This document shows, in pieces, positions 2,029-41,021 of a DNA stretch of 64,000 bases. Every line of letters begins with the position of its first letter. The first letter of the stretch is position 1. Position numbers and translations under genes: made by a program. The DNA lies in NCBI GenBank assembly GCA_017302835.1, contig JAFLCC010000003.1:186001-250000 (forward strand). Reading direction: 5' to 3'. Origin of the DNA: Deltaproteobacteria bacterium. Lineage in GTDB: Bacteria > Bdellovibrionota > Bdellovibrionia > Bdellovibrionales > Bdellovibrionaceae. The notes beneath the pieces are model-generated. The model did no database searches. It was given only the letters and a program-made list of their open reading frames with translations, and was not told the origin of the DNA.

Positions 2029-3915
2029 TTACATTCTTGTCATCAAATCAGAGATTTGTTTTGAAAACTTACTGGGGTCTGGTAAGGAGGATCCTTCAGT
2101 CAAAAGGGCTTGATTGTACAAAATTTCTGACCAGGTCTTTTGCTCCTCCTCAGATTTTGTCATCATGACGTCAAACAATGGATGCTTTAAATTTAACTCC
2201 AAAATTCTCTTGTTTTTGGGCATTTGAAAATCAGAACCCATTCGTGACATCAGTCTTTCCATATTGGCCGATGGGTCATTAGCCGCATTGACCAGGCATG
2301 CAGGGGTTGTGCTGAGGCGATCAGAAATCACCACGTCTTTGATGTTTTCTGTTAGGAAGGTTTTCATCTTCTCGATTAAAGGTAGAAATCTTTCTTTGAG
2401 TGATTTATTCTCTTCTTCCTTAGTTTTCTTTTCTTCTGCTGAATCTAGATCCAAATCATTGCGAGTGATAGACTGAAGTTTTTTATCTTTATAAGTTGTT
2501 AAACTTCCCATGACCCATTCGTCAATAGGGTCATTACAAAACAAGACTTCAAAACCTTTTTCGTTCAATTTCTCCATGTAAGGAGTCGATTTAATTTGAG
2601 TCAGGCTCTCTCCTGTAATAAAATAAATATCCTTTTGATGCGGTTTCATTCTGGCAATGTACTCATCCAAAGAAGATAGCTTTTCTTGAGTTGAAGTCGT
2701 AAAAAGCAATAAATCTTGAATTTTATCTTTCGCAGAAGAATCATTGGCAATACCTTCTTTTAAGGTGGAACCAAATTCTTTCCAAAAGTTTTCGTAGAGT
2801 TCCCTTGTCTGAGTCATCATGTCTTTTAAGGAAGAATAAATTTTATTAACGACATTCTTTTTTATCAATTGAACTTGACGATCTTGTTGTAAAATTTCGC
2901 GTGATACATTTAGAGAAAGATCGCTGCTATCGATAAGGCCCTTAACAAATCGTAAGTGAGGAGGAATTAAATCTTTGCAGTCGCTCATAATAAAAACTTT
3001 TTTCACATAAAGACTTAAACCATATTCGGTATCTCGATACTGATAATTCCAAGGTTTTTTCTCAGGAAAAAATAAAAGAGAGGTAAATTCAATATTTCCC
3101 TCGGCCTTATAGTGGATTGTTTTCGCAGGATTCGCCCAGTCATGGGAAATGTGTTTATAAAATTCTTGGTATTCCTCAGCCTTGATTTCACTTGCGGGCC
3201 TTAGCCAAAGCGCCTTCATAGAATTAAGGGTTTGATCCTCTTCTTTTTCCTTGTCGGTTTCATTTTCTTTCACTTTAGTTTTCATAACCACAGGGTAAGA
3301 AATAAAATCGGAATATTTTTTAACTAAAGATTTAAGAGTCCACTCATCACTGAAGTCCGCAACGTGATCTTCTTCCTCAAATTTTTTCAAAGTTAAGGTG
3401 ATCGTCGTTCCTGTTCCTTCGGGTCTTGGAACTTCGTCAACGGAGTAGGAGCCATCACCTAATGATTCCCAAACTACACCCATATTGGTTCCTGCTTTTT
3501 GAGTGTGCAAGGTCACCTTTTCAGAGACCATAAAACTTGAGTAAAATCCCACCCCGAACTGTCCGATAAGTTCAGGCTTGTCTTTCATTTCCTGAGAAAT
3601 GGTGTGATATTTTTGTGTGCCAGACCTAGCGATAGTTCCAATATACTCGATAACTTCTTCTTTATTCATGCCGATACCAGAATCAATGATTTTTAAAGTT
3701 CTGGCTTCTTTATTCGGCTCCAACCTGACTTCATATTTGTGTTCTGCAGGAACAAGCAAATGATTTGTCAAAGCTTCGAACTTCAACTTATCCATAGCGT
3801 CTGAGGCATTGGAGATAAGTTCTCGTAAAAAGATCTCTTTGTTCGAATACAAAGAGTGGATCATAAGATCCAATAATTTCTTGATTTCAGCATTAAATGT
3901 TTGAGTTTGTTTCAT
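2029..3915 (-). CDS. htpG: HtpG, Hsp90-family molecular chaperone
   Basis: HtpG is the bacterial cytoplasmic Hsp90, an ATP-dependent dimeric chaperone that remodels client proteins. The 628-residue length matches the family (~620-630). The N-terminal GHKL ATPase domain shows FLRELISNASDA, then DSGIGM, then GQFGVGFYSSFM (lid). The middle domain carries FVKGLIDSSDLSLNVSRE. The C-terminal dimerisation domain is present up to the end. The ATG is preceded by AAGGAG at good spacing. A sigma-70-like promoter sits just upstream (3939-3966); I saw no clear heat-shock (RpoH-type) promoter. Transcribed alone and divergent from the M3 peptidase gene. Confidence 0.97.
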   Translation of the reverse strand: MKQTQTFNAEIKKLLDLMIHSLYSNKEIFLRELISNASDAMDKLKFEALTNHLLVPAEHKYEVRLEPNKEARTLKIIDSGIGMNKEEVIEYIGTIARSGTQKYHTISQEMKDKPELIGQFGVGFYSSFMVSEKVTLHTQKAGTNMGVVWESLGDGSYSVDEVPRPEGTGTTITLTLKKFEEEDHVADFSDEWTLKSLVKKYSDFISYPVVMKTKVKENETDKEKEEDQTLNSMKALWLRPASEIKAEEYQEFYKHISHDWANPAKTIHYKAEGNIEFTSLLFFPEKKPWNYQYRDTEYGLSLYVKKVFIMSDCKDLIPPHLRFVKGLIDSSDLSLNVSREILQQDRQVQLIKKNVVNKIYSSLKDMMTQTRELYENFWKEFGSTLKEGIANDSSAKDKIQDLLLFTTSTQEKLSSLDEYIARMKPHQKDIYFITGESLTQIKSTPYMEKLNEKGFEVLFCNDPIDEWVMGSLTTYKDKKLQSITRNDLDLDSAEEKKTKEEENKSLKERFLPLIEKMKTFLTENIKDVVISDRLSTTPACLVNAANDPSANMERLMSRMGSDFQMPKNKRILELNLKHPLFDVMMTKSEEEQKTWSEILYNQALLTEGSSLPDPSKFSKQISDLMTRM

Positions 3916-3938
3916 CGGTAATCTCCTTAAGTGAGACC

Positions 3939-3966
3939 AATATGTGAGCTCTTAAGCATTTGTCAA
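3939..3966 (-). promoter_or_regulatory. candidate sigma-70 promoter of htpG
   Basis: On the minus strand a perfect TTGACA (3961-3966) is followed after 16 bases by CATATT (3939-3944), about 25 bases before the htpG start. The -35 matches fully and the -10 matches 4 of 6. Confidence 0.5.
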
Positions 3967-4036
3967 TTGCAAAAAAAATGTAGAACATTGCCAAGTTCTG
4001 TGAAATATTCCAAAGTCTGAAAAAGAGGAGGGCAAA

Positions 4037-6241
4037 GTGAATCGCTTTATAAGGTTATACGTTCATAGAGGCTTAGGTAGAAGCTTAGATAAAGGCTTAG
4101 ATAAAGGCTTAGGGGGTATGAATTTGATCTCTGTGGGTTTGATAAGCCTTGTTTTATTATCATGTTCCTCTATTCAAAAGGAACAAGCTCAAAAGGATCA
4201 AGCTCCAAAAGAACAACTAATCAAAAACTCTGGCACTCAAATTTTATTGCCGGCACTCATACGCTCTGATTACTCTCCCAAAGAATTGACAGAACTTTGT
4301 CAAAAGGAAATTAAAATTTTCCAGGAAAGAATAGATAAGTTGGCAACCTTTAAATTTGATACAAAACAGAAGCGATTAGACCGTCAAATGGGTTTGGAGC
4401 TCTTCAATCATACTTTTGGTGAACTGGAGTCAGCTTCAGCGGTTTTTTTTGAAAAAACCGCTCCGTTAAATTTCATGTATTCAGTTTCAACACGCGAAGA
4501 ATTGCGAACGCCTTCACAGGATTGTGAGACTCAAGCTGAACAGCAATCAATTGAAGTGAGTTCAAGAAAAGATTTATTTCAGGTTATGAAGCTGGCGGAA
4601 GGTTTGCTTTCAAAAATCAAATTAAACCCAGAGGAAAAGCGAATTGTTTCTGAAACCATGAAGAATTTTAGACTTAATGGATTAGAGCTGCCCGACGAGA
4701 AACTCAATGAAGTTAAGAAATTAAAGAAAGAGCTTGCAGATTTGTCCACTCAGTTCGGCGCCAATTTAAATAATAACAATGATTTTGCAGAAATGACGAT
4801 CGAGGAAATGCAAGGGATACCTGAATCAGTACTCTCTAGGTTCACAAAATTACCAAATGGAAACTATAAAATTCCGGCCAAGAGCACATATAATTTAGCA
4901 TTTATGGAAAATGCAAGCCGGCCAGACGCACGTCGAAAAATGTTGTCTGTCATGGACAATAGAGAAGCTCAAAAAAATACTGAAATTTTAAAAAGAGCTG
5001 TCAGTATTCGCCGTCAATTAGCAAAGCTATTAGGATATAAAGATTGGGCTGATTACAAAACAGCCAATAAAATGGCCAAAACTGGAAAAATAGCCAGAGA
5101 TTTTTTAGAAGGCCTAAGAAAGAAATTAAAAATACAATATAGAAAAGATTATGCTGAGCTAGTTAATTTTAAAAAACAATTTGATCCGAAGACAACAACC
5201 TTGGATCCTTGGGATGGTATTTATTTGGATTACCAGCTTCGAAAGAAAAAATTTAAATTAGATGCTGAATTGCTAAGAGAGTACTTTCCCACTCAATTAG
5301 TATTAGAAAAATTATTTCAAATTTACTCTAAGTTGTTGAGAGTTCATTTTATCCAAGTATCTAATGCAACAACTTGGCATTCTAGCGTCCAATTATTTGA
5401 AGTTCATGATGAAAAAACGGGTGAGTTACTTTCCTATTTCTATACGGATTTATATCCACGCGAAGGAAAGTACAATCATGCGGCGGCATTTCCATTACGT
5501 CCTGGATATTTCACTCAAGGAAAATATGTATTACCTATCGCTGCTATTGTCGCAAATTTAACTCCACCAAGTGCAGATAAACCTTCCTTACTGAGTCATG
5601 ATGAAGTGGAAACATTATTTCATGAGTTTGGTCACATTATGCATATGGTGTTAACGAAAGCCAATTATGCAAGCCTTTCTGGTGCAAATGTGGCTTGGGA
5701 CTTTGTTGAAGCCCCTTCTCAAATGCTCGAAAACTGGGTTTGGGAACCAGAAATATTACGACAAATAACCGGGCATTATCGTAATACCAAAGTGCCAATG
5801 CCTGAAGAGCTTATTAATAAATTAGTTGCTTCTAGAAAGTTTGATCAATCTTACTTTTCAACTAGACAATTAATGTTGGGACTTTTTGACATGAATTTAC
5901 ATCAAAGTTTAAAGGATCTTGAACCCATAGAAACTTATAAAAAAATATATAAAGAAACAACAGATATGGAACCCTTGCCTGAAACTCATTTTCCAGCAAC
6001 TTTTGGTCATCTCATGGGAGGATATGATGCCGGATATTATGGATATCTTTGGTCACAGGTTTATGCCCACGATATGTTTACTAAGTTTGCGGGAAAAAAT
6101 CTTTTATCCTCTGATGTAGGGTACAAGTACCGAACTCAAGTACTTGAAAAAGGAAACACTTATCCAGCGGATGAATTGGTCAAGAAGTTTTTAGGCCGTC
6201 AACCCAATAACAAAGCCTTTTTTAGATATTTAGGATTATAA
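4037..6241 (+). CDS. M3-family zinc oligopeptidase, exported lipoprotein
   Basis: This is a thimet-oligopeptidase-like metallopeptidase (family M3) that would cut short peptides. The zinc site HEFGH is at ~residues 531-535 (HEFGHIMH), and the family's C-terminal GYDAGYYGYLWSQVYA block is present. Unlike the cytoplasmic enzymes OpdA and PepF, it has a hydrophobic segment ending in LLSCSS, a lipobox, so it probably acts on the periplasmic side. The chosen GTG start has a strong AGGAGGG site. The ATG at 4118 would give a more normal signal peptide, but its SD lies too close. Between the two starts lies a short degenerate repeat (GRSLDKGLDKGLGG) made by a tandem DNA repeat of about a dozen bases. 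Length 734 is slightly above the family norm because of this N-terminus. Confidence 0.88.
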   Translation: MNRFIRLYVHRGLGRSLDKGLDKGLGGMNLISVGLISLVLLSCSSIQKEQAQKDQAPKEQLIKNSGTQILLPALIRSDYSPKELTELCQKEIKIFQERIDKLATFKFDTKQKRLDRQMGLELFNHTFGELESASAVFFEKTAPLNFMYSVSTREELRTPSQDCETQAEQQSIEVSSRKDLFQVMKLAEGLLSKIKLNPEEKRIVSETMKNFRLNGLELPDEKLNEVKKLKKELADLSTQFGANLNNNNDFAEMTIEEMQGIPESVLSRFTKLPNGNYKIPAKSTYNLAFMENASRPDARRKMLSVMDNREAQKNTEILKRAVSIRRQLAKLLGYKDWADYKTANKMAKTGKIARDFLEGLRKKLKIQYRKDYAELVNFKKQFDPKTTTLDPWDGIYLDYQLRKKKFKLDAELLREYFPTQLVLEKLFQIYSKLLRVHFIQVSNATTWHSSVQLFEVHDEKTGELLSYFYTDLYPREGKYNHAAAFPLRPGYFTQGKYVLPIAAIVANLTPPSADKPSLLSHDEVETLFHEFGHIMHMVLTKANYASLSGANVAWDFVEAPSQMLENWVWEPEILRQITGHYRNTKVPMPEELINKLVASRKFDQSYFSTRQLMLGLFDMNLHQSLKDLEPIETYKKIYKETTDMEPLPETHFPATFGHLMGGYDAGYYGYLWSQVYAHDMFTKFAGKNLLSSDVGYKYRTQVLEKGNTYPADELVKKFLGRQPNNKAFFRYLGL

Positions 6242-6326
6242 TTTGTCAGTCCAGGAAAAGAATCAAATTAAATTAAATTAGTCTCTTTCATCGACACTCA
6301 AATTTTACCTTGCTACTCTAACATTT

Positions 6327-7571
6327 ATGGAAAACACAGCGCATTCAATACATACCCCTGGCTTTACGGGGTATCAAAAATTTGTCGTAGCCATTTTAGC
6401 CTTTTTGCAATTTACGATTATTTTAGATTTTATGATTATTTCGCCTTTGGGGGCGGTATTAATGCCGGCATTAAAAATTACGCCATCACAATTTGGTGCG
6501 ATTGTTTCGGCCTATGCCTTTAGTGCTGGGTTATCTGGGCTTTTGGCTGCTGGATTTGCTGATCGTTATGATCGTAAGAAACTCCTTTTGTTTTTTTATG
6601 CAGGATTTGTACTGGGGACATTTTTATGTGGTATATCAAAGACCTATGAATTTTTGTTGATGGCTCGGATTATCACAGGGCTTTTTGGCGGAGTTATCGG
6701 CTCGATCATTATGGCGATTTCCACAGATATTTTTTCTTTTCAGCAAAGAGGAACAGTGATGGGTTTTATTCAAACAGCCTTTGCAGCTAGTCAAATTTTA
6801 GGTATTCCTGCAGGATTGTTTTTTTCTAATTTATGGGGTTGGCAATGGCCTTTTATTTTGATTGTGCTGGTGAGTCTGATTGTTGGGGGAGTCATTATTA
6901 TATATCTCAAGCCTTTAGAAACTCATTTAAATAAAAAAGTGGATCCTAATCCTTTTCATCACCTGTGGACGACGGTTAAAATCCCAAGCTATTTGTTAGC
7001 ATTTTTTACCACGGGACTTTTAAGTCTTGGTGGTTATATGCTAATGCCATTTGGAAGTGCGTTCTCTGTGCATAATTTAGGAATTCAAATCGATAAATTG
7101 CCTTTGATTTATTTGTTAACGGGAGTAGCTTCCATTTTTATTGGCCCTCTGGTTGGAAAGTCTAGCGATGTTTTTGGAAAATTTAATGTATTTCTTTTTG
7201 GTGCTGTCCTTAGCATTGTCATGGTTCTTATTTACACGAACTTAGGTATGACGCCTTTATTTTGGGTGATCGTAGTAAACACAGTGATGTTTATAGGAAT
7301 TTTCTCTCGGATGATACCTTCACAAGCGCTGATGTCTGTTATTCCATCTACGGATCGGCGTGGAGCTTTTATGGCTATTGGTTCTTCATTACAGCAATTT
7401 GCTGGTGGTTTTGCTTCGCTTGCGGCGGGTCTTATTGTTGTTGAAGGAGTTGATGGTAAATTAGAGCACTTCGATACATTAGGTTATATTCTGGTACTTA
7501 CAGCTTTGGTGTCTACTTACACTATGTTTCTAATTCACAGATCGATACCAGAGCCTGCGGCGAAGGATTAA
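6327..7571 (+). CDS. MFS transporter (DHA1-like efflux family)
   Basis: The 414-residue protein has about 12 hydrophobic membrane segments. The major-facilitator signature lies in the loop between helices 2 and 3 (DRYDRKK, residues ~82-88), and the motif-C-like region GIPAGLFFSNLWGW follows in helix 5. It resembles arabinose-efflux/drug-H+ antiporters of the inner membrane. The substrate cannot be read from sequence. It follows the M3 peptidase by 85 bases and may be transcribed separately. The stop codon lies inside a perfect palindrome (7565-7588). Confidence 0.85.
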   Translation: MENTAHSIHTPGFTGYQKFVVAILAFLQFTIILDFMIISPLGAVLMPALKITPSQFGAIVSAYAFSAGLSGLLAAGFADRYDRKKLLLFFYAGFVLGTFLCGISKTYEFLLMARIITGLFGGVIGSIIMAISTDIFSFQQRGTVMGFIQTAFAASQILGIPAGLFFSNLWGWQWPFILIVLVSLIVGGVIIIYLKPLETHLNKKVDPNPFHHLWTTVKIPSYLLAFFTTGLLSLGGYMLMPFGSAFSVHNLGIQIDKLPLIYLLTGVASIFIGPLVGKSSDVFGKFNVFLFGAVLSIVMVLIYTNLGMTPLFWVIVVNTVMFIGIFSRMIPSQALMSVIPSTDRRGAFMAIGSSLQQFAGGFASLAAGLIVVEGVDGKLEHFDTLGYILVLTALVSTYTMFLIHRSIPEPAAKD

Positions 7572-7588
7572 ATGAATTCATTTAATCC
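7565..7588. terminator. perfect 24-bp palindrome over the MFS stop codon
   Basis: GGATTAAATGAA followed by TTCATTTAATCC is a perfect palindrome. It includes the last codon and TAA of the MFS gene and lies between convergent genes. It probably acts as a bidirectional terminator or 3'-end hairpin. There is no strong U-tract. Confidence 0.5.
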
Positions 7589-7617
7589 TCCGTTTAGTTA
7601 TCAAAGATTTCTTCTAA

Positions 7618-8775
7618 TTAGCGATAACTTCGATTTATTTTATAAATATCACTTTTTAATAAATTTTTTCTAGCAGAAAGATCATTTGCAACAGTCAACG
7701 ATTCTTCGCGAATTCGAGCGAGTGCTTCCCTTTCATAGAATTCAATAGAATTAAGCTGATATTTTTGACCTTGACGATTTTCTTCAAGTCTTATTTTGCG
7801 ACCTTCGTTTATTAAATTACCGCGTGAAGACATTGATCTAAAAAAATCCGCAGATTGCTGGTGAATCAATTTCATAGAGCGATTAGTTTGGGCAATTTGT
7901 TGACGTCGATGGAGCCTTTTTGTTTTTTCCGAAGCCAATAACATGACCCTTTCATCACGTATTCGATCAGCCATACTATTGTAATACAAAGGTAATGACC
8001 TCAAATTAAGTAAATCCTCTGTTTTTAAAGGAGTGTTGCTACCCCAAACAGTATTACGCCCAAAAATAGTTTTCATAAAAAGGTCCAAACTTATTAAATA
8101 GCTATTTGAATGAACCATAATTTCTATAGTTTCATTATCGAAAAGGCGCAAGATTTTCCAGCCAGTTTCCATGGCTTCAAATTGCTTATATTTTTCGTTA
8201 CCAAAACAAAATTCTTTGAGACACATTACAGATTTAGAAACCTTTTCCGTATTAATTGTTAAATTTGATACGTTTTCATGATGATTCTGATCTTCAAATA
8301 TTTTAATCGTTTTAGTGTTAAGTTGGCTATTTTCAATGCCTTTAATTTTTGAAAGTATATAGAAGTCAGAATTGGAATCATTATTGAAACCTTTTATTAG
8401 GACTTCGTCGTTAATACAAATTTCCTTACTTCCGCAAAGGTCTCCACCTGGAATTTTTTCTTTAATACTTCCATCAGGCAACGCAATTTTAAATAGTTCT
8501 TGATCACTATCAAAATTATTTTGGATGTCTAAAATTCTAGCAGGTAAATTTGCAAGTTCCTCTTCTTGAATTAGCAAACTTACATTTTCTCCGATACAAT
8601 ACCCGAACTTTTTAGAACATAGTTTTTGTAAGTTTTCAGGTTTTTCAAATTGAGGTATAGAATAGTCAGGTATTTCTTGTGTTGAGATGGCCCTATAGAT
8701 ATCAGTTGCGGAACTATTGTACGTAATTATTAAAGTAAGTGATAAACAAGCAAAAAGTTCTTTTGATTTCTTCAT
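7618..8775 (-). CDS. secreted Cys-module protein, last gene of a three-paralogue operon
   Basis: The start at 8775 is chosen because GAGG precedes it and the product then begins with a clean signal peptide (MKKSKELFACLSLTLIITYN). An upstream extension to 8868 would overlap the previous gene. The ~385-residue protein has three copies of a pattern with two Cys followed by an acidic-x-V strand: C...YCIGENV, C...ICINDEV and C...FCFGNE. Each is followed by a beta-rich segment with a charged turn, which suggests small SH3-like barrels, each with a disulfide. The C-terminal ~130 residues are Arg- and Gln-rich and helical. The same three-module pattern occurs in the two upstream genes. I do not recognise a named family; an envelope location is inferred from the signal peptide. 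Confidence 0.72.
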   Translation of the reverse strand: MKKSKELFACLSLTLIITYNSSATDIYRAISTQEIPDYSIPQFEKPENLQKLCSKKFGYCIGENVSLLIQEEELANLPARILDIQNNFDSDQELFKIALPDGSIKEKIPGGDLCGSKEICINDEVLIKGFNNDSNSDFYILSKIKGIENSQLNTKTIKIFEDQNHHENVSNLTINTEKVSKSVMCLKEFCFGNEKYKQFEAMETGWKILRLFDNETIEIMVHSNSYLISLDLFMKTIFGRNTVWGSNTPLKTEDLLNLRSLPLYYNSMADRIRDERVMLLASEKTKRLHRRQQIAQTNRSMKLIHQQSADFFRSMSSRGNLINEGRKIRLEENRQGQKYQLNSIEFYEREALARIREESLTVANDLSARKNLLKSDIYKINRSYR

Positions 8776-8803
8776 AAATTCCTCGATTATATTCTCTAAA
8801 TAG

Positions 8804-9901
8804 TTAAAGTTGACGGCGTTTTTCAGCTTCTTCCAATGCATTTTGCTTGCGATTTTCCAATCGTTCAAGTTGTCGCTTTGCTTTTATTTTTTGTTCTTCA
8901 AGGCGATTTTGCGCCCACTCAATTTCACGATCTTTCTGCTCAGACCGATTCACTATAGCTGCGGATCTTTTCGAAATTGTACGAGCTTCAGCACTATCGG
9001 CCTTTTCCTGTGTTAATAACGAGTTAGCATAGTAAGCTGTCTGTAAATCTAATAAACGATTTGCTTCACGAAGCAAATTGAAATAGTCAGCACGTTCTTT
9101 TTCTGTCTGTGTTTTTAAGTTAGCTAGTCTTGATTGAATATCGGGTACAACAAAAGCATCTTTTAATAGTCCGATATCTTTAGTGTAAACAAATTGCCAG
9201 CTTTTTTCACTGTTCGGTTGTTGAATGATTGAAAATCCATTTTCGTAAACTCGAGTAATAACAGCGGGATTACCTCCATATTGATAATTTTCGTTTGAAC
9301 TAAATGCGCACTTATTTCCTTCTCCACAAAGTACAGCTTTATAGATATCACTTGCCAGCAATGCTACAGAATCGTTTTCTTGAATATTCGACTGACTAAG
9401 AACATTTCTTTGAATTAAAATCTTAAATACGCCATTACTTTGAATTGAAGTTACCACACCAGTGACCCAACGAATAGGGTTGGGTGGATCATAGATTTGA
9501 ATTTTTCTAACTAAACCAATAACTTCATCATTAACGCATATTCGATTTTGAGGGCACAAATCTTCTCGGGTAGCTTGCGAAAATTTAGCGCTTGTATCTA
9601 GAATCGTAAACTTTTCATTTGGAAAATCTCCATCGATTTTAATTAGTTTGACGGGTCTATTAGCGCCAGTGTTTGGTGGATGTATCAGATAAGTTACATT
9701 ATCACCTAAGCAAAATAGTTTATCGTTTTTTGTACATTGCTGACCAAGATTTTGATCTACCTTTGTTGAAGAGGCATTAAATGATTTTGCCTTTAAGTAA
9801 AGGGGTTGTGACAATTCTGCCCATGTTTGTAAAGATATGAATAATAGAGCGGCTGCAGCTATCGATTCTTTTAAACTCATAATTTTGTGTTTTATTTTCA
9901 T
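8804..9901 (-). CDS. secreted Cys-module protein with C-terminal coiled coil, second paralogue
   Basis: The 365-residue product has a signal peptide (AAAALLFISLQTWA, cut near residue 28). Three Cys-paired modules follow: C...LFCLGDNV, C...RICVNDEV and C...NKCAFSSNE. The last ~100 residues (QKDREIEWAQNRLEEQKIKA and onward) are highly charged heptads that should form a long coiled coil ending RRQL, which suggests oligomerisation or a spacer. It lies 38 bases after the 9940-11316 gene and 28 bases before the 8775 start, so the three genes are almost certainly one transcript. The start could be 7 codons later (MSLKES). Function unknown. Confidence 0.72.
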   Translation of the reverse strand: MKIKHKIMSLKESIAAAALLFISLQTWAELSQPLYLKAKSFNASSTKVDQNLGQQCTKNDKLFCLGDNVTYLIHPPNTGANRPVKLIKIDGDFPNEKFTILDTSAKFSQATREDLCPQNRICVNDEVIGLVRKIQIYDPPNPIRWVTGVVTSIQSNGVFKILIQRNVLSQSNIQENDSVALLASDIYKAVLCGEGNKCAFSSNENYQYGGNPAVITRVYENGFSIIQQPNSEKSWQFVYTKDIGLLKDAFVVPDIQSRLANLKTQTEKERADYFNLLREANRLLDLQTAYYANSLLTQEKADSAEARTISKRSAAIVNRSEQKDREIEWAQNRLEEQKIKAKRQLERLENRKQNALEEAEKRRQL

Positions 9902-9939
9902 ATTTTTCTCTTTTATTATTATTTAAATTATAAACTAAA

Positions 9940-11316
9940 TTAGTCCTCTTGACTTTCGGGAACAACAGCTGTTCCTTTATCGCTTTTTGTTAAACAGTCA
10001 TTGTAAGCATCTAATAAATTTGGTTTTTTATTGTTTCGAACATGCCAATCCCGAATTAAATTCATGCATTTAACTTGTTCTAAAGATTTGAATTTTGATA
10101 AAATCTCTAACCCCTCTGACGTAGTATATCTCTGATATTTTCCATTTTCTATCCATGGTTCCACGGCAATTTTAAAAGCTTGAAGAGCAAATGAATTGTT
10201 AAATTTTCCACAGCTCTTCAAGTGAAACTCAGTTTCTTCTCTCGGTACATCGTTGAGCTGTTTCAATTCATCCTTAAAGCACTCAAATGCAAATGAATTG
10301 GTTATAGCTGTACACGAATTTTTGATTTTTTCAATAAAAGCATATTTGAATAAAAAAGTTTGATAATTTTCATTTTGCTGTAGATCTGTTACATGCGATT
10401 TACATTTTGAGACATAAAATTGTGGACTAAGTTGTGCATAACGATTCTGTTTGACCAATGCAGACATCGATTGTTTCATTTCATTTTTTGGATTACCAGA
10501 CCAGGATTCGCTTAGGATTTCGATATTAGTTACTTGGGTAAACATTATTTTTCCTCCGACATATGGAGCTATTGTCACGTCGCCATTGCTAAATACCTCG
10601 AGAATCGAAATTTCTTTTTGCTGGTTGTCCATTACTGATAAGAATCTATTTTCATTTACAAGTTTACCAATACAGAATCTAAGCATGAAGCACGGTACAG
10701 ATCGGTGCAAGTTACTTTTGACTTCATTAGCAGTTAAACTGACATTATCATCTGTAGGAATTTTTTCAGTAGGATCTCTTCTATTATACAGCCTTTGAAC
10801 AGAAACATTTCCTGTGACTGTTGTGTAGAGCACAACGCTTTTGTAAATATTTAGTGTCTTGGTTTCGGGATTCATTTTATCAACTAACACAATGTCCCCG
10901 CTGCATAAATGACCAGTTGGGCAAATATATTGCCGTTTAACAGGTATGGTTTTAACTTGAGGGTAAGGATCTAAAACACGTATGTAGAAAGTCTCAGATC
11001 CAGGTAGCCCATCGATTTTCGTTACTATTCCTGGCATATTTGGATAGGCACTTAATTCTTTAATCGGGCGGGATGACAAAACTGATATTTGATCATTTAT
11101 ACAGATTTTCGGAACTCCCAGCCTTTGACTTTCGGAATCTGTCTGGGGTGAGCATGATGTTTGAGTTGGAACATTGGCAACGATATCATTACCGGCAGCA
11201 AGTGCTGGTAATTTATTAATAAAAGAAATAAAAAAGAAAACAAATAGTTTAGCTATTCGCCTTAATGAAGGGCCATTTTCCAATTTTTTTGTTGTTCCTT
11301 TTTGATCTTGAAACAT
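9940..11316 (-). CDS. secreted Cys-module protein, first paralogue of the operon
   Basis: The 458-residue product starts after AAGGAG. Its N-terminal signal segment has a basic RRIAK followed by LFVFFFISFINKLPALAA. Residues ~55-290 carry the same Cys-paired beta modules as its two downstream paralogues: KICINDQI, C...HLCSGDIV and C...RFCIGKLV. The C-terminal ~170 residues differ from the paralogues. They are helical with several Cys (SKCKSHV, NSCTAITNSFAFEC, KSCGKFNNSFA), which looks like a degenerate internal repeat built on a C-x-x-I/F-x-NSFA pattern. No known domain was recognised. As the promoter-proximal gene it probably drives the operon; the upstream 256 bases are noncoding. Confidence 0.7.
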   Translation of the reverse strand: MFQDQKGTTKKLENGPSLRRIAKLFVFFFISFINKLPALAAGNDIVANVPTQTSCSPQTDSESQRLGVPKICINDQISVLSSRPIKELSAYPNMPGIVTKIDGLPGSETFYIRVLDPYPQVKTIPVKRQYICPTGHLCSGDIVLVDKMNPETKTLNIYKSVVLYTTVTGNVSVQRLYNRRDPTEKIPTDDNVSLTANEVKSNLHRSVPCFMLRFCIGKLVNENRFLSVMDNQQKEISILEVFSNGDVTIAPYVGGKIMFTQVTNIEILSESWSGNPKNEMKQSMSALVKQNRYAQLSPQFYVSKCKSHVTDLQQNENYQTFLFKYAFIEKIKNSCTAITNSFAFECFKDELKQLNDVPREETEFHLKSCGKFNNSFALQAFKIAVEPWIENGKYQRYTTSEGLEILSKFKSLEQVKCMNLIRDWHVRNNKKPNLLDAYNDCLTKSDKGTAVVPESQED

Positions 11317-11572
11317 TTTCTTTCTCCTTAATTGACTTCACAACGATGTATTCTATGAAAAATCAATATATGGTAAAACTTTAAATATTTCACCTGTAGA
11401 GAATTAGACATTTAAGCAATAAACGTTACTGACCGAAATAGCTTTTGTTATCAGCTCTTTAAGTTCGAATTAACTATAAAATTTGCTTAAGGCTCTTTCC
11501 ATTTTCCTCATTTGTGATGAGGATGGCTAAAAGGACTTATGGAGATATTTATTATTCAATGTTTCTATACTT

Positions 11573-12976
11573 CTAAACTTCCATTTGGGGACCAGGGCCG
11601 TAGGGTTTTAGTCCCTTTTTCTTAATTTTTTCTACCAAAGTGGTTCTGTTTAGTCGCAATAAAGCCGCCGCCTGGTTGCGGTTCCATCCTGTTTTTTCGA
11701 GAGCCTTTAAAATTAAAGAATTTTCATAGGCATCCACAGCAGAATTAAAATCTAAACCATTTTCTGGGATTTCTTCATAAGTCATTTCTTCTTTTTTTTC
11801 AATTTTAGTTTGGTACTTAATGGGTAGGTCTTGAAGCTCAATGATTCCCTCTCCTTTAAGGATACAGATTCTTTCCACAAGGTTTTCAAGTTCGCGGATA
11901 TTTCCTGGCCAAGGATAAAGCGTTAGGCTCGCCAATGCTTTTTCACTAAACCCAAGCAGTTTTTTAGATTTGTTATATTGGAGTAAAAAATGACTTAACA
12001 ACAAGGGAATATCTGTTTTTCTTTCATTCAAAGAGGGAATGGAAATAGGAATCACATTTAGACGATAAAATAAATCTTCTCTAAAGCGGCCTTCATTAAC
12101 GGCTTTTTCTAAATTTAAATTAGTGGCAGCGATCACTCGCACATTTACGTTGATAGTTTTCATGCCTCCGACGGGTTCAAAAGATTTTTCTTGAAGAGCC
12201 CGAAGAATTTTGACTTGCAGGCTAGGTATCAGATCTCCTATTTCATCTAAAAACAAAGTACCACCATCAGCTAACTCAAAACGCCCCATCCGGTTAGTGA
12301 TGGCACCGGTAAAGGCGCCTTTGACATGGCCAAACAATTCACTTTCAAGAAGCTCAGAAGGGATAGCGCCGCAGTTTATGGGGATAAAAGGGCCTGACGC
12401 GCGCGAGGAATTATAATGAATGGCCTTGGCGATGAGTTCTTTTCCCGTGCCACTATTGCCTGTAATAAGAACGGTGGCTTCCGAGTCCGCCACTCTCTCA
12501 ACAAGATCCAGAACGTGATGAATTCCCTCACTTTGTCCTACGATTTGGTCAAACTTATATTTCTTATCTATAAATGATTTTAACTGTTTATTTTCTTGCT
12601 GAAGGTTTTTATGTTCTAAGGCCTTGTCAATAAGACTCAGAAGTTCTTCAAAATTAAAGGGCTTCGTTATAAAATGAAAGGCTCCTTTCTGAGTGGCTTT
12701 GATGGCGTGTTCAATTGACCCATAGCCTGTGAGAATAATCACTTGTATTTGTGGGTAAATAAGTTTTAGGTGTTCCATAAACTCTAGCCCATTTCCATCA
12801 GGAAGATTCATATCTACAATAGCCAAATCTAAAGCTTGATCCCCTTGGATAAGCAACTTAGCTTCCTCGATATTTGCAGAGGTGATGACATTCAAATTCT
12901 TTTTTGAAAGAACTCTAAATAAAGCCGTTCTGAGACTGGAGTCATCATCTAAAATAAGAACTTTCTGATTCTTCAT
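11573..12976 (-). CDS. NtrC-family sigma-54-dependent response regulator
   Basis: This is a ~467-residue two-component transcription activator. The order is a receiver domain (acidic LDDDSS, phospho-acceptor D in [19 protein letters not shown]), an AAA+ domain with Walker A (GNSGTGKE), the sigma-54-contact loop GAFTGA and Walker B ([11 protein letters not shown]), and a Fis-type HTH at the C-terminus ([16 protein letters not shown]). All catalytic motifs are intact. The start at 12976 has an AGGAAGG site. A longer form from 13006 would start at about the predicted transcription start, so it is rejected. The kinase gene upstream on the same strand (13075-14823) is the likely partner. Target genes would need -24/-12 promoters; I found no convincing one in the window. 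Confidence 0.93.
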
Positions 12977-13012
12977 GAACCTTCCTTCCTGGTCGGTATG
13001 TGACATAACTTT

Positions 13013-13074: not shown

Positions 13075-14823
13075 CTAGATTGTCGTAAAATTAACGCTTT
13101 TAAGCGAGAAAAGGATCTTAAGCTCATGGGCTTTGGTTAAGGAGCCTTGAAGATGGTACTTTTCTATAATATTCAGGGCTTCCGTGGGGGTCTGCTTTGT
13201 GGTCAACAAGATCTTTAGAGTTGCAAAATTTTGGTCTGATTTACCTGAAATTGAAATTTTATCATCTATAAAATTTTTGACGGATAAAAATAGTTCTAGG
13301 AAAAATTGAATCATTAAAATTGAAGATCCCAGAACCTGTAGATCTTTTTGGAGGTGATAACTGAGGGTGAAATTTTTATTTTGTCGTTGCAGATGGAATA
13401 ATTGAAAGGCTTTTTCAATCATATCATATAAATTAATTCTTTTGACCAACTCAGTATCATTGATTCTTGAAAAGACCAAAAGATTGTCAACGATATCTCT
13501 GCATCTTTTGGCTGCCTGTTCAATTTCTTTGAGGTCATGATAAATGGGATCTTCTGATGTTAAATCCATTAAAATAAGTTGCGTAAAAGATAACAAGCCA
13601 GCGAGGGGGTTATTCATTTCATGTGCTAAACTGCTACTGATAATCCCAAGTTCGGCATCTGGTGCCATTAAAAGGATTTTTGATTCCAGTTTTAATTTTT
13701 CGTTGATATTGTTGTACGAGTTTATAAAATATTCTTGTTTCTCGATAAGGATATTCTGGCTCAATACTTCAAAATGATCGTTGTTGTTGTCTAGTTTGAA
13801 ATTGGAACCTTTTTCGCAATCTTTGCAAGGGTGATCTAAATTAAAAATTAATTTATAACATTTGTTTTTATTTAAATCGCTAGGAAGATTGCTTTGAATG
13901 ACTTCGAAGTTGTTATTTATTAACACAACAGGCTCTTTGATGGCTTTGAAAGTGGCTTCCCAATGATTTTTAATAATTTCCATTTTATAGTTTTTTTCAA
14001 TGCGTTCCAAAGAAAGGCTGACGGCTTCAGTGATTCGACTTAAGAACTCAGTTTCTTCTTTTTTAAATGGTTTTATTTTTGCTCTCATAAAAAAAACAGA
14101 ACCAACTTCAACATTCTGCCAAAAAATAGGAAGTTTTAAAAAGTCATAATCCATCTTGGATTTAAGTTCTTCTGAAAAATATTTATCATCGGGTTCTTCA
14201 TAGATTTTGACCCATTGAATTTCAAAGGTTTGTAACAGTTCTTGATTTAATTTTACCTCTAGTTCGTTAATATTGTTTGATTTAAAAATAGCAGTAATAG
14301 TTTTTCTGAAAGCTTCGATTCTGTAATTCGTAAGAAATAATTTTTTTCTGGATTCAATTAAATACTTTGTTCTTTTTTCAATTTTTTCTTCCAAATCCGA
14401 TTTTAGCTTTTCTAAAGATTTGTTTTGTTCATCAAGTAAGGATTTGTAACTTTCAATTTGCTTATCGAAATACACTTTTTCCAATGTTAAGTTAAGGTCA
14501 TTCTCAATTTCGGGATCATTGTAGGAATAAAAGATTTTAAAAAAAGAAAATTTATTATGCAGATTTATAAAAATATTTTTTGAAAAATCTTTTGGTATGA
14601 CGGCAACTAGTTTTAAGTAAGGATTTATGGACTTCCATTCTGTATAGTAGTCCACAAATTTTTTTTCTAATAACGAGGTTAGATTTATTCCAATAACATC
14701 ATAGTTCGATCTAGTGAAATGATAATTGGCTTCATAAAGGTCTTTCGCTAAGATCGAACCCATTTCCTGCAGTTTTGGATTCCACGGACCAATTAATAAA
14801 AACTTATTAATTATAGCTGGCAT
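13075..14823 (-). CDS. histidine-kinase-like sensor with degenerate ATPase domain
   Basis: The 582-residue protein lacks obvious membrane segments. It has an N-terminal receiver-like region, a coiled coil (residues ~135-185), a GAF-like segment and a PAS-like segment with a Cys cluster (CYKLIFNLDHPCKDCEKG). Next comes a clear HisKA dimerisation helix with the phospho-acceptor in SSLAHEMNNPLAG (about residue 400). The ~100 residues after that occupy the HATPase position but lack the N-box Asn (ELFLSVKNFID stands there), the DxGxG G1 box and the GxGxG G2 box, and the protein ends early. ATP binding is therefore doubtful. It overlaps the HAD gene upstream by 13 bases and precedes the sigma-54 regulator, so it probably modulates that regulator. 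Confidence 0.82.
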   Translation of the reverse strand: MPAIINKFLLIGPWNPKLQEMGSILAKDLYEANYHFTRSNYDVIGINLTSLLEKKFVDYYTEWKSINPYLKLVAVIPKDFSKNIFINLHNKFSFFKIFYSYNDPEIENDLNLTLEKVYFDKQIESYKSLLDEQNKSLEKLKSDLEEKIEKRTKYLIESRKKLFLTNYRIEAFRKTITAIFKSNNINELEVKLNQELLQTFEIQWVKIYEEPDDKYFSEELKSKMDYDFLKLPIFWQNVEVGSVFFMRAKIKPFKKEETEFLSRITEAVSLSLERIEKNYKMEIIKNHWEATFKAIKEPVVLINNNFEVIQSNLPSDLNKNKCYKLIFNLDHPCKDCEKGSNFKLDNNNDHFEVLSQNILIEKQEYFINSYNNINEKLKLESKILLMAPDAELGIISSSLAHEMNNPLAGLLSFTQLILMDLTSEDPIYHDLKEIEQAAKRCRDIVDNLLVFSRINDTELVKRINLYDMIEKAFQLFHLQRQNKNFTLSYHLQKDLQVLGSSILMIQFFLELFLSVKNFIDDKISISGKSDQNFATLKILLTTKQTPTEALNIIEKYHLQGSLTKAHELKILFSLKSVNFTTI

Positions 14824-35114: not shown

Positions 35115-35342
35115 ATTTACCGTTTCTTTTGGGGTTTAGAAAAATAATCAGACTTAGATTTAAGTCTAACTTTTAATAAAATCAAATAGTATCCAATATA
35201 AATACTACTTCAATAGTAGAGAAGCGAGTCTAGGATTTTTGAGTTTTAAATTATTCGATTTAGAAGAATTCAAAAAACAAATATCATTAAAATGTTGTCA
35301 ACTTTAATTCCACTGAGACTTGTTAAATTTTATGGAGGTTCT

Positions 35343-38090
35343 GTGAAGAGCAATTTAATTAGAGGTATTCATTTATTTTCAGTATTTTCAATGTTGGTAT
35401 GTTGTACCAATACGACGATTAAATCATCTGATACCATGAGTGCCAAAAATGAAACCATATCAAGAACTATTGCCGCTGAAGAGTACCCTATCGAGATGAG
35501 AAATCCAGAATCCAAATTGACTTATTGGGGAGAATATCAAGCTGTCACAAAAGATCTTAAATCCAAAAAGAAATATGCCTTAGACCGAACGGATTCGGGT
35601 CTAATCAATCTAATTATTCCTGGCCAAGGAAAGGCTGCTGAAATTGTTAAAAATGAAAAGCTTTTTGCTTTGTCAAATCCAGAGTTATATCATTTTTTAG
35701 TATGGATGAGGGCCAATCCTATTTCGACGTTTCAAGATATTAGAAATAACCAACAAAGTGCGGATAGTCCTAAGGGAATCATGCGGTTTAAACCCTTGCC
35801 AAAGAAAAAATTTGCTTACCAACCGGTTGCGGATACCATTGTGGTTACTAAAATGGATGATGTTCTTGAACTGATGGATCAGCCAAAAATATTTTCAGTA
35901 AGAAATTATACAAAAAAAATGGAGGAGTCAGTTGGTCCTTTTATGTTGGCCTACGATGAATCAAGATACAATCTCAAAGAAAAACCATGGATGCGAAAAA
36001 TGCTGCCTGCCAGTGATTTACCACGAGTCAGAAAGCTGGTTAAAGATATTTCTTTAGGAGTTCTGGCAGAGCAGAGATATGTGGGAAGTGATATTAGAGG
36101 AAAAGAGTTTGGTCGGATCGAAGTTATCAATCAATATGCTCGTCGTTCTCCCATCTTGTTCACTCAACAGTATTTTGGGCTAAAAGGTGTTCACATAGAA
36201 AAACTGTTTGATTGGTCAAGAGCGACTCAAGATGATTTTTTCCACAATTTAGTTAGTGATTCTAGCGTGAAAAAAAATGCAGAAATCGCGGGGAAAGAGC
36301 TACATGAATATTTAAAAGAGTATATTCCTCGAAGAGAGAAAGAAATTCAAAAGGAAATGGCACAAAGAAGCATTAGCAGGGATGAAAATAGTCCATCCTA
36401 TAAGTCTTATTATGAAGAGCTTGATATTCTGAGCCGACTGATATTAGATAATAATCCGGATGTTGTTATTTCAGAACATGATGACAAGGCTGCTCGAATA
36501 AGAAGTAACATTATTGGAACCTTGGTGGGTGGGATCGAAACAACTCAGGCCGCGATAGCTCAAGCTTTTAATGAAATTCAAAAAAGACCAACATGGTTAA
36601 AATATGCACAAGATGTTGCAAGTAAAGCAGAAATCGCCGAAGTGAATCATGATGAAAAAAGCCTTAGCTTTTATACCTCAGAAATGGAAAAGTTAGTTTG
36701 GGAAGCTCTAAGATTTCATCCTGTAAATCCAATAGTCGTTCGATACGCAGAAGAGGATTACAAAATGAAAAATGGGTTTAAAATTCCCAAAGGAGCCCAT
36801 GTTTTAATCGCGACTCAGTCTGCGATGTTTGATGAACAATATTTTAACAATCCCAATTCTTTTGAGCCCAATAGGATAAATTCTGAAAAATTTATCGCTC
36901 TTGCAAAGTCGGATAGTTTTGTAAAGAAAAGTAGCTATCCAGATGTTCAAAATTTCGAGAATTCTGAGAATCATATAAGGTCAACAAAGTGGACGAAATT
37001 TCAAAAATCTTATTTTCATTTAGGCTACGGTCATCATCGTTGTCTAGGTGATTATATTGGGGAAATTCATGTACCTGAAATGGCCATGCAATTATTCAAG
37101 CTACCAAATGTGAAAGTAGTTGACGGGCAAGCAGGAAATTTAGATTTCAGATATTTACGAGTTACCAACTTTCTAGGAGATAAGTTTTATTATTCGTTTC
37201 CAGAATCCTATTCGATTGAGTTCGAAACGAATTCACAACTTCCTAGAATTAAAAAATTACTGGAAAAAAAACCAATTGAAATTGCCAATAGAAATTATGC
37301 TTATGACTTTTTTTTGCAAGACTTTGACAGAAATGTTTACAGAAGGTGTTTGGCAGGGTGGGATATTGATAAGGAAGCGTCTCAATTAAAAAAAGATGAT
37401 TTCTTTAAGGGAATGGGCAATGCTTCACTCACACATGATTTAAATGGTGATGGATCAAGTAAAGATTTGTTATTTTGTCGTTTGAATAGAGAATTTCAAA
37501 AATGTATGACTGATAAAGAAAAAGAATTAAAATTTCATCATTTAGGTGGCGAAGAGAGAACGACGGGGCCAAAGTCCCAACTCAATGATTTTGACAAACA
37601 TCAAGCTGCCTATGAGGGGTGTTCTAAGAATCTTAACTTAACAGAGCAGGCTTTTTATGAAAATTTATTTTTTGGTAAATCCATTGATCTTAGTTCCTTA
37701 GACTTATCAAAAAGTATTAGAAATAATGATGCCTTTAAATTCGAAGATGACTTGAAATTTTACAATCGGTTTAATTCCAGAGAATCAATGTTAAATCCCT
37801 TAGGTTGGAAAAAAATTCCAGAATCAGAGAAAGCTCTGATGTATACTCGTTTTGACCTTGATTTTAGATTATGTTTTGGGAAAAAGGTGAACCTCGAAAA
37901 AATTCAGCCATTGAAGGCATACAATCAATGCAAAGATGGGGTTTATATGCCAAAACAATTTATCAAAGTAGGGTCTCTGTCACAAGTTGAAAGATTTTAT
38001 ATGTTAAGGGATTATCTCAAAGTGCCGGGCGTAAATTCAGTCGATTCTGTGAAAGGTGTCGAAACAAGTCTCGAGAAAGAGAATCCCTAA
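35343..38090 (+). CDS. exported cytochrome P450 lipoprotein with a long C-terminal extension
   Basis: GTG at 35343 is chosen over the ATG at 35292 because GGAGG precedes it and because it leaves a normal signal peptide with lipobox MLVCC (Cys20/21). The 915-residue product has P450 signatures: I-helix GGIETT (~396-401, instead of AGxDT), EALR (the ExxR, ~454-457), and the heme loop FHLGYGHHRCLG with thiolate Cys ~567. About 280 further residues follow, with several Cys (YRRCLAGWD, LLFCRLNREFQKC, FRLCFGKK) and no known domain. Bacterial P450s are normally cytoplasmic, so an envelope-anchored one is unusual. Redox partner and substrate are unknown; none is encoded next to it. The small gene at 38196 may be in the same transcript. 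Confidence 0.82.
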   Translation: MKSNLIRGIHLFSVFSMLVCCTNTTIKSSDTMSAKNETISRTIAAEEYPIEMRNPESKLTYWGEYQAVTKDLKSKKKYALDRTDSGLINLIIPGQGKAAEIVKNEKLFALSNPELYHFLVWMRANPISTFQDIRNNQQSADSPKGIMRFKPLPKKKFAYQPVADTIVVTKMDDVLELMDQPKIFSVRNYTKKMEESVGPFMLAYDESRYNLKEKPWMRKMLPASDLPRVRKLVKDISLGVLAEQRYVGSDIRGKEFGRIEVINQYARRSPILFTQQYFGLKGVHIEKLFDWSRATQDDFFHNLVSDSSVKKNAEIAGKELHEYLKEYIPRREKEIQKEMAQRSISRDENSPSYKSYYEELDILSRLILDNNPDVVISEHDDKAARIRSNIIGTLVGGIETTQAAIAQAFNEIQKRPTWLKYAQDVASKAEIAEVNHDEKSLSFYTSEMEKLVWEALRFHPVNPIVVRYAEEDYKMKNGFKIPKGAHVLIATQSAMFDEQYFNNPNSFEPNRINSEKFIALAKSDSFVKKSSYPDVQNFENSENHIRSTKWTKFQKSYFHLGYGHHRCLGDYIGEIHVPEMAMQLFKLPNVKVVDGQAGNLDFRYLRVTNFLGDKFYYSFPESYSIEFETNSQLPRIKKLLEKKPIEIANRNYAYDFFLQDFDRNVYRRCLAGWDIDKEASQLKKDDFFKGMGNASLTHDLNGDGSSKDLLFCRLNREFQKCMTDKEKELKFHHLGGEERTTGPKSQLNDFDKHQAAYEGCSKNLNLTEQAFYENLFFGKSIDLSSLDLSKSIRNNDAFKFEDDLKFYNRFNSRESMLNPLGWKKIPESEKALMYTRFDLDFRLCFGKKVNLEKIQPLKAYNQCKDGVYMPKQFIKVGSLSQVERFYMLRDYLKVPGVNSVDSVKGVETSLEKENP

Positions 38091-38635: not shown

Positions 38636-39739
38636 CTAAAATTTCTTTTCGAGAAGAAAGCCATTTTCTTCTAGAGAGCAAAGTTGATAGGCGCCCTTAA
38701 AACATCTTTCGTTGGAAGCATTTTTACCTACGACTAAAACCATATCGAGGCTTAAAAAAATAAGTCTTCTAATGGCGCTGAGGCTCCAATTGGGAGCACC
38801 CATTTGAATCAGCATTTCAAGTCTTATGAGTGCTTGGTGTGGGTCATGAGCATGCAAAGTGCCGAAACTTCCTAGATGCCCTGTGGATAAGGCCATCAGG
38901 AAATCTTTTGCTTCAGATCCTCTAATTTCCCCCATCACAATTCTGTCTGGTCTTAAGCGGAGGGACCTCTTTACTAAATCTGTTTGGTTAATTTCAGTCT
39001 TGATGTTGTTTGGATTTGATTGGGTCAATAATTTCATACTGGCTTTGTTTGGAAGAGATATTTCGGAAGTGTCTTCAATGATGATAGATCTTTCTGTTGG
39101 TTGGGTTAGATTTAAAAGGGAATTAAGCACAGAGGTTTTCCCTGAACCTGTTGAGCCTATAACTAAAAAGTTTTTTCTTTCAGAAATAATTTTTTGAAAC
39201 TCGTTAATGAGTACCTCGGAGCACCATTTTTTTTCGATTAGTCTTTTAAAGGTCCAGCTGGTTAAGGGATGTCTTCGGAAATTCACTGAGGAAAAATGAT
39301 GGGTGATTGATTTATCTATGATTGAAATTCTAAAATTTTCAAAGGAACCGTCGGCAAAAGGACTTTCAAGGTTCAAGATGCAACTTGTCTGATCGCAAAG
39401 TCTTTGAATAAATTTTTCGTAAGTATACTCAGATAGAAAATAATCGGTGTGTTTGATGAGAGTCCCATTCTTTTCAAAAAAAATTGAAACTGGATCATTG
39501 ATAATAATTTCAGATGTCTCCTCATCTTTAAGCAGCTCCTCTAAGGGGCCATAGGAGAAAAATTCATTTTGGATTCTTTTTTTGTAAGCACAACTAAGAT
39601 GTTCCGTTAAATTTTCTATGAGTGACTGCATTTTGTTCTTACTTGCTTCCTGATGAGATTGATCTCCTAAAGCAAATTCTTCATAGGTAAGTTGATTTAA
39701 TTTTGTTATTATTTGATGGGTTAAATTTGCCAATTCCAT
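38636..39739 (-). CDS. CpaF/TadA-like secretion ATPase
   Basis: A ~367-residue cytoplasmic ATPase of the type II/IV secretion family that powers Tad-type pilus assembly. Visible motifs are Walker A (VIGSTGSGKTSVLNSL), the Asp box IIEDTSEI, Walker B and Glu in DRIVMGEIRGSEA, and the His box LSTGHLGSFGTLHAHDP. An N-terminal domain with EIIINDP matches CpaF (INDP). The start at 39739, 1 base after the secretin stop and with a GGAAG site, is preferred over one 18 codons upstream. It forms an operon with the CpaC-like secretin, but no tadB/C, pilin or prepilin peptidase gene is nearby. Confidence 0.9.
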   Translation of the reverse strand: MELANLTHQIITKLNQLTYEEFALGDQSHQEASKNKMQSLIENLTEHLSCAYKKRIQNEFFSYGPLEELLKDEETSEIIINDPVSIFFEKNGTLIKHTDYFLSEYTYEKFIQRLCDQTSCILNLESPFADGSFENFRISIIDKSITHHFSSVNFRRHPLTSWTFKRLIEKKWCSEVLINEFQKIISERKNFLVIGSTGSGKTSVLNSLLNLTQPTERSIIIEDTSEISLPNKASMKLLTQSNPNNIKTEINQTDLVKRSLRLRPDRIVMGEIRGSEAKDFLMALSTGHLGSFGTLHAHDPHQALIRLEMLIQMGAPNWSLSAIRRLIFLSLDMVLVVGKNASNERCFKGAYQLCSLEENGFLLEKKF

Positions 39740-39740
39740 A

Positions 39741-41021
39741 CTAGATATCTTCCAGATGATTGATTTTATTATTATGTTTTTCATAATCTTCATCCATTTT
39801 CATGATCGAAGGTTTTACAAAAATCATCAGTTCTGTTCGCTTAGTCAAAAAATCTTTACTTGAGAATAAAGTGCCAATGATTGGCAGCCTTGAGATGAAA
39901 GGAACACCACTGTAGTTATCTCCATTGATATCTGTAAGAAGCCCAGAGAGGGCAATCATTTTTGAGCTGGTTAAATCAAAGAAACTGGATACTTTATTAG
40001 TGGTGATCGCAGGTATCCCATCAACACTTAGACTCTTGTCAATTGAAGAGACTTCGCTTTGTATTCCAATATTCATTCTCCCCAGGGAGTCCGCTTTAGG
40101 ATTGACTTTGAGTAGAATTCCATATTTTTTCCAGACCACGTCACCACCAAATTTACTTCTGGTTTTGATTGGAAATTCTCCACCCGCTAGGAATTCTGCT
40201 TCCTTACCGCTCCGACAAAGAATATTTGGGCTGGCCAATAATTTTCCATTTCCTGAGCTTTCAAGTAAGTGTAGTTTGGCTTCAAAATCTTGAATTTTAG
40301 TTGTTGGCAATATTTCAGCCTTGTAGGAGTCGGATAATTCAACACCATAATTTTGTGCAAAACCGCGGTTGATTTCGGCCACAGTTATTTGAACTTTAAT
40401 TACGGGAGCTAGGGTTAGAGAGGTGGGGTCCTTAATCACTTTGATACCAAAGGGTGTCAGAATTTTTTCATAATCTTTAAAATGAGGATCTTTGGGATGC
40501 AGTCTTAAAATAGGGCGAGAATTAAATTGAACTTTTTGTTCTGGAATTCCAAAATTTCCAAATAATTGATTAAAGTAAGCACCCATTTCCTCTTGAAGAG
40601 ATTCTTCGATATGAGCTGTGAACTCTATGGATTCATCGCCAGATACTTGTTTAGAAATTTCTATCCAGTCATTTAATCTATAAAGAGTCCCGGAAAGTAT
40701 AATTTGTGAATTTATCGTTTGAATTTTTAACCCCAATTTGTTCTCAAGAAGAGAATGTAGTTTTTTGAATAAGGATAGATTTTGTGGTTTTACAACTTGC
40801 ACTTTATGAAGCTCATCTTTAAACTTGAGGTAGCTCGTGCCAACCGATTTACCAGTAATGATGAGATTGTTCTGTCTTACTTGGCCGGTGATAACTCCTT
40901 TTTTTTCGATCCAAATCGTATTTCCTTTGAATGGAATTTTTAAGTTTTCACCTGTTGAAATTATAAATTCCATCCCTAAAGAATTGAGGTAAATTAATAA
41001 ATAAAAGATTATTCTTTTCAT
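39741..41021 (-). CDS. CpaC/RcpA-like outer-membrane secretin
   Basis: The start at 41021 gives a clear signal peptide (MKRIIFYLLIYLNSLG); an upstream extension to 41153 adds ~44 residues with no support, though neither start has a good SD. The product is ~426 residues. The N-terminal pilus-associated domain (IISTGENLKIPFKGNTIWIE) is followed by a BON-like segment and the secretin domain (VQFNSRPILR, LLASPNILCRSGKEAEFLAGGEFPI, then IALSGLLTD and FISRLPIIGTLFSS). These match the Tad secretin, which forms the outer-membrane gate for the pilus. It is co-transcribed with the ATPase downstream. Confidence 0.88.
   Translation of the reverse strand: MKRIIFYLLIYLNSLGMEFIISTGENLKIPFKGNTIWIEKKGVITGQVRQNNLIITGKSVGTSYLKFKDELHKVQVVKPQNLSLFKKLHSLLENKLGLKIQTINSQIILSGTLYRLNDWIEISKQVSGDESIEFTAHIEESLQEEMGAYFNQLFGNFGIPEQKVQFNSRPILRLHPKDPHFKDYEKILTPFGIKVIKDPTSLTLAPVIKVQITVAEINRGFAQNYGVELSDSYKAEILPTTKIQDFEAKLHLLESSGNGKLLASPNILCRSGKEAEFLAGGEFPIKTRSKFGGDVVWKKYGILLKVNPKADSLGRMNIGIQSEVSSIDKSLSVDGIPAITTNKVSSFFDLTSSKMIALSGLLTDINGDNYSGVPFISRLPIIGTLFSSKDFLTKRTELMIFVKPSIMKMDEDYEKHNNKINHLEDI

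Follow-up and report, generated by a model that had tools for sequence, protein, structure and literature searches.

The trio genes and their modules

The 64,000-nucleotide window analyzed here (positions 186,001 to 250,000 of contig JAFLCC010000003.1, GenBank assembly GCA_017302835.1) comes from a member of the family Bdellovibrionaceae within Bdellovibrionota, a phylum of mostly predatory bacteria. Our subject is a trio of genes on the minus strand of this window that encode repeat-containing, apparently exported proteins, in the order P0003 (458 aa; 9940..11316), P0002 (365 aa; 8804..9901) and P0001 (385 aa; 7618..8775). The coordinates confirm the arrangement described in the first-pass annotation of this DNA, namely, three adjacent co-directional genes separated by gaps of 38 bp and then 28 bp. 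For P0001, the list of open reading frames (ORFs) begins at TTG 8868, inside P0002, and the start at ATG 8775 is preferred because it is preceded by GAGG and results in the 28-bp gap. The 256-bp region between the trio and the upstream ntrC-like gene (11317..11572, minus strand) contains a 7-bp inverted repeat at 11505-11523.

All three proteins contain a hydrophobic stretch within the first 50 residues, with the modules beginning shortly after it, and these signal-peptide-like cores support the export that had been predicted for the trio. Each protein carries three Cys-delimited modules, all encoded on the minus strand. In P0003, module 1 (residues 55-131; 10924..11154), with the Cys pair C55/C72, is placed by its colinear alignment with P0002 modules 1-2, and modules 2 (residues 132-208; 10693..10923) and 3 (residues 209-272; 10501..10692) are placed by profile hidden Markov models (HMMs) of the repeats of relatives, described below, together with a motif scan. 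The same combination places P0002 modules 1 (residues 56-115; 9557..9736) and 3 (residues 192-251; 9149..9328; 10.1 bits) as well as P0001 modules 2 (8224..8436) and 3 (8059..8223), the latter being the most degenerate module of that protein. P0002 module 2 (residues 116-191; 9329..9556) is the one modeled as a five-strand SH3-like barrel, and P0001 module 1 (8437..8619) was delimited by BLASTP alignment to P0002 and the motif scan.

The C-termini differ, in agreement with the earlier description. P0001, which has an acidic N-terminal part, ends in a very basic helical region (7621..8001; charge about +12, isoelectric point 10.5). The C-terminus of P0002 (8807..9139) is charged, coiled-coil-like and devoid of Gly and Pro, with helices at residues 267-314 and 322-364 in a low-confidence AlphaFold model. 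That of P0003 (9943..10494) contains Cys residues and is probably helical, and a search with it yielded only matches at E 0.004 and weaker, which we do not believe.

The three proteins are paralogs, as had been proposed: BLASTP yields E values of 2e-9 for P0001-P0002, 1e-4 for P0002-P0003 and 0.013 for P0001-P0003, the last pair showing only marginal similarity between strongly diverged modules. The alignments are colinear over modules 1-2, with module 1 opposite module 1, and this colinearity suggests that the three genes derive from whole-gene duplication of a three-module ancestor. The claim that each protein repeats the motif C-x(4-8)-[ILF]-C-[IVLF]-x-[DENG]-x-V three times holds for the three Cys-pair modules per protein and fails for the strict wording, which fits only 3 of the 9 modules (two in P0002, one in P0001 and none in P0003). 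Even so defined, the motif is specific, given that shuffled trios average 0.0015 matches and no other ORF in the window matches. A looser form, consisting of a Cys pair with 3-17 residues between, followed by x-[GNF]-[DENKS], fits all nine modules, compared with 0.4 expected per shuffled trio.

Repeat kinship and module fold

Scans of the trio against Pfam and NCBIfam produce no believable match, in line with the earlier statement that no named family could be recognized, and the PHROGs matches are at E 0.006 and weaker only. Specifically, no curated SH3 model in Pfam or NCBIfam, SH3b included, and no pilin model is matched; the neighboring genes encode an M3 peptidase, an MFS transporter, NtrC and a kinase, with no chaperone or usher. 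The relationship of the trio to other proteins emerged from a different lead, a Bdellovibrio repeat of the form C-x-G-D-x-V...G-x-V-x-x-I-x-x-N-G. An invented consensus of this repeat, used for searching, led to real proteins in relatives. Their repeats, cut at the Cys pairs and with all window sequences excluded, were used to build HMMs that were grown to 103 and then to 174 repeats.

With every version of the HMM (initial, 103 and 174 repeats), the trio ORFs rank first, second and third among the 100 ORFs of the window. P0002 scores 25.6 bits (E 6.5e-8), P0003 10.3 bits (E 0.004) and P0001 6.5 bits (E 0.06), with the next window ORF at 3.9 bits and the best of 3000 shuffles at 8.2 bits. Comparison of the trio profile with a double-repeat profile of the relatives gives a probability of 95% and an E value of 5e-8. 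In its loose form, the Cys pair precedes the predicted barrel in all nine trio modules. Several relatives have a first repeat without the Cys pair and later repeats with it, and for this reason the pair is assigned to the linker between barrels. Convergent resemblance, whereby small secreted beta domains of whatever origin would acquire short C-x-G-D-x-V strings, might account for the low scores of P0001 and P0003 and for the large share of the score carried by the Cys pair and the GxVxxIxxNG strings. We regard it as very unlikely, however, because three neighbors top 100 ORFs under a model blind to them, the profile-profile match has an E value of 5e-8, the order of the strings is conserved, and an independent fold model is concordant. 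Thus, sequence comparison provides good support for the trio being strongly diverged members of an unnamed, phylum-wide repeat family.

The closest counterparts are the Cys-delimited repeat proteins of Bdellovibrionota, exemplified by the tandem genes at L096:4542-7674, L025:5460-8628 and L023:5045-7456 (locus and coordinates). These proteins share with the trio the signal peptide, the C-x(4-8)-C-x-G-D-x-V opener, the G-x-V-x-x-I-x-x-N-G core, the linker Cys pairs and the occurrence of at least two co-directional paralogs. The trio modules, however, are longer, far more diverged and only three in number, and the trio proteins lack the PF18820 domain and possess additional helical C-terminal parts.

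The fold of the module was approached by two routes. AlphaFold, supplied with six window modules, models P0002 module 2 with a predicted local distance difference test score (pLDDT) of 76.2, a predicted template-modeling (TM) score of 0.67 and SH3-like strand order, with five strands and a short helical turn ahead of the last strand. The nearest structures found with Foldseek are KapB, the SGF29 tandem Tudor, Agenet and the PHF20 Tudor (TM 0.80 by target), at probability 1.00 and E values of 0.01-0.1. On the side of the relatives, their repeat profile weakly matches Tudor/Agenet chains among PDB sequences, and the Pfam models DUF4537, Tudor_2 and KOW match repeats of individual relatives. DUF4537 (PF15057), itself Tudor-like, scores above the cut-off on repeats from a single Bdellovibrio relative but has no match in the trio. 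Because these two independent routes, each weak, reach one fold, the module is likely to be a Tudor-like SH3-fold barrel. The Tudor/Agenet/SGF29 and KapB barrels have the same predicted five-strand fold as the one modeled trio module, but they are cytoplasmic or nuclear, occur as single or double domains and lack Cys linkers, and sequence similarity to them is marginal. The earlier view of the module as unrecognizable thus largely gives way: it is probably an SH3-fold, Tudor-like unit of a repeat family spread across the phylum.

Relatives, lineage specificity and a possible role in prey contact

The repeat family is represented in 27 of the 66 genomes of the family Bdellovibrionaceae and in 52 of the 291 genomes of the phylum (28 of 163 genera). 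In one genus (g6), the repeat is mostly fused to PF18820, the Bdellovibrio beta-sandwich domain (BD_b_sandwich), in tandem gene pairs; this domain is present on most Bdellovibrio proteins with the same repeat, which are secreted and encoded in clusters. PF18820 was not found by Pfam searches in the trio, the source genome or five congeners. At locus L085, the layout resembles that of the trio, with a signal peptide, immediately following repeats and a C-terminal domain, which is shared with an adjacent secreted gene. These varying second domains combined with a shared repeat indicate that second domains have been exchanged around a common repeat. The two adjacent L085 genes (3486-5544), which have the C-terminal domain in common, carry different N-terminal modules, a Tudor-like repeat in one and a C-x-V-x-RSYSKYYV repeat in the other; the pair, a case of domain exchange, adjoins transposase-like ORFs. 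The tandem pairs of g6 form part of a four-gene PF18820 cluster, which, from L096:4542-7674 onward, encodes two Tudor-repeat proteins, one helical protein and one glycine-zipper protein, and the genome with the four-gene cluster is one that we take to be, probably, B. bacteriovorus HD100.

Tandem pairs of repeat genes occur at 11 of the 31 loci read, many of these loci being orthologous and so not independent events, and several relatives have a single repeat gene only. These counts bear on the hypothesis in the first-pass annotation of a hetero-oligomeric envelope assembly, that is, one complex (a fibre, a cap or an envelope patch) in which each C-terminus would provide a different interface. 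Three co-directional paralogs with short gaps and differing C-termini, one of them basic in a protein with an acidic N-terminal part, would fit such a complex, as would the relatives that often have two to four genes side by side, including the glycine-zipper partner in the Bdellovibrio cluster. Tandem duplication in a fast-evolving secreted family explains the gene pairs equally well, however, and the relatives with one repeat gene also count against a complex. We hold a hetero-oligomeric assembly to be possible but doubtful.

The trio itself appears confined to its lineage. The search for the same trio in related genomes, which the earlier annotation had suggested, was negative: single-protein and trio-profile searches detect no orthologs in the five congeners, the 66 family genomes or the 291 phylum genomes, and none are found in GTDB contigs, phage records or plasmid records. 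A GTDB scan with a Bdellovibrio member of the repeat family produced no match either. Two congeners encode other, different repeat proteins. Synteny of htpG, ntrC and the kinase and HAD genes extends to four congeners, where the htpG-ntrC interval is empty in three and occupied by an ABC transporter in one; in the window, the interval contains the M3 peptidase and MFS transporter genes (4037..7571, plus strand) in addition to the trio. Because the contents of the slot differ between congeners, the trio is considered lineage-specific. The slot, at 2029-13006 of the window and at loci L074-L077, is variable in the genus.

The link to predation comes through the beta-sandwich relatives. Empty bdelloplasts are killed, uninvaded prey with secreted B. 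bacteriovorus proteins inside, and the beta-sandwich proteins Bd1044 and Bd1045 are on the entry-specific list obtained by empty-bdelloplast proteomics (PMC12546842, PMC11003981). Another beta-sandwich protein, Bd2715, increases during growth in prey according to published work. Genome G060, probably that of B. bacteriovorus HD100, has a sole run of adjacent PF18820 genes, at 988.7-994.2 kb, in which the first two of four genes carry Cys-delimited repeats; because no other such run exists in G060, Bd1044 and Bd1045 are, by position, probably two of these four genes. Two close relatives of the repeat family may be deposited in killed prey. Since Bd1044/Bd1045 are entry-specific and probably lie in a repeat-bearing cluster, prey contact is our leading guess for the role of the family and a candidate role for the trio.

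Our preferred interpretation, which we consider reasonably probable, is that the trio proteins are secreted binders or scaffolds, forming a set that is restricted to its lineage and diverges rapidly, with the predator surface or prey contact as the most likely setting. Under this scenario, the trio would be read as one transcript and, after Sec export, each protein would form a string of three SH3-fold (Tudor-like) barrels. The C-x(4-8)-C pairs would lie in the linkers, between the end of one barrel and the start of the next, and, because the proteins are exported, could close a disulfide staple in the oxidizing periplasm, stiffening the string. The barrels would be the binding part, with peptides, glycans and the wall or prey surface as candidate ligands, and the helical C-termini (basic, charged coiled-coil-like and Cys-containing, respectively) might anchor or oligomerize the proteins, such that co-expressed paralogs would differ in place or partner. 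The setting at the predator surface or prey contact is suggested by kinship with the PF18820 proteins linked to prey entry by B. bacteriovorus.

Several points weigh against this interpretation. The trio lacks PF18820, the domain through which the relatives linked to predation are recognized; the identity of Bd1044/Bd1045 within the four-gene cluster rests on position; and a predatory habit of the source species is an assumption. The better model covers one module and six sequences, with Foldseek E values (0.01-0.4) that are not strong, and the AlphaFold model of full-length P0002 from three sequences has a pLDDT of 37.5. P0001 is marginal, its HMM score exceeding all of its own shuffles but falling below the best P0002 shuffle. 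Finally, scans of the 256-bp upstream region for sigma-70 and sigma-54 promoters and terminators gave nothing convincing, at about chance level, so that the single transcript is putative.

A more specific scenario is that the proteins are effectors of predation or competition, released into or onto prey, whose barrels bind wall, membrane or protein targets. The presence of the relatives Bd1044/Bd1045 among entry-specific proteins in the remains of killed prey (PMC12546842, PMC11003981) is compatible with this possibility, and the trio is lineage-specific and located in a variable slot, as effectors often are. Nevertheless, effectors appear rather unlikely, given the lack of an enzymatic domain and of the beta-sandwich in the trio, and of evidence of predation by the source species. 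Returning to the binding or scaffold set, we tentatively envisage a broader, speculative extension, in which Bdellovibrionota might use a large and rapidly diversifying repertoire of exported strings of disulfide-stapled Tudor-like barrels as modular binders where predator meets prey, the trio being an independent version with helical oligomerization domains in place of the beta-sandwich.

For many of the proteins that Bdellovibrio produces around the time of prey entry, no function is known. An orphan trio can now be placed in a family of exported Tudor-like repeats that spans the phylum and for which neither Pfam nor NCBIfam has a dedicated entry, and the trio gains a likely fold and a likely layout, with Cys staples between barrels and an exchangeable second domain. 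The relatives in a genetically tractable strain make the function of the family testable.

Regulation and other features of the window

The ntrC-like gene, which shares the strand of the trio and lies 256 bp upstream of it, might suggest that the trio is a housekeeping accessory set for envelope stress or secretion, under the control of the adjacent NtrC-type regulator and kinase. No sigma-54 site is found upstream of the trio, however, and NtrC regulation is disfavored because the regulator and kinase persist in congeners without the trio; we therefore deem such a role highly improbable. The sensor kinase (13075-14823) matches HisKA, with no ATPase domain detected at 1e-5, and its catalytic part may be degenerate. 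Base composition offers no support for horizontal transfer, the GC content of the trio (0.32-0.37) being inside the range of the neighboring genes. No RNA family is matched in the window by Rfam.

Elsewhere in the window, positions 50921-53263 encode an exported protein of 780 aa that has no Pfam match and includes an extended low-complexity region rich in Gly, Leu and Met (GGLGGLGG). A protein of 932 aa (35292-38090) combines a lipoprotein-like start with a centrally placed cytochrome P450 domain; both this position and the protein size are unusual for a P450. At 38636-41153, a secretin gene overlaps a gene for a type II/IV secretion ATPase, with no other Tad or type II secretion system gene among the neighboring ORFs.

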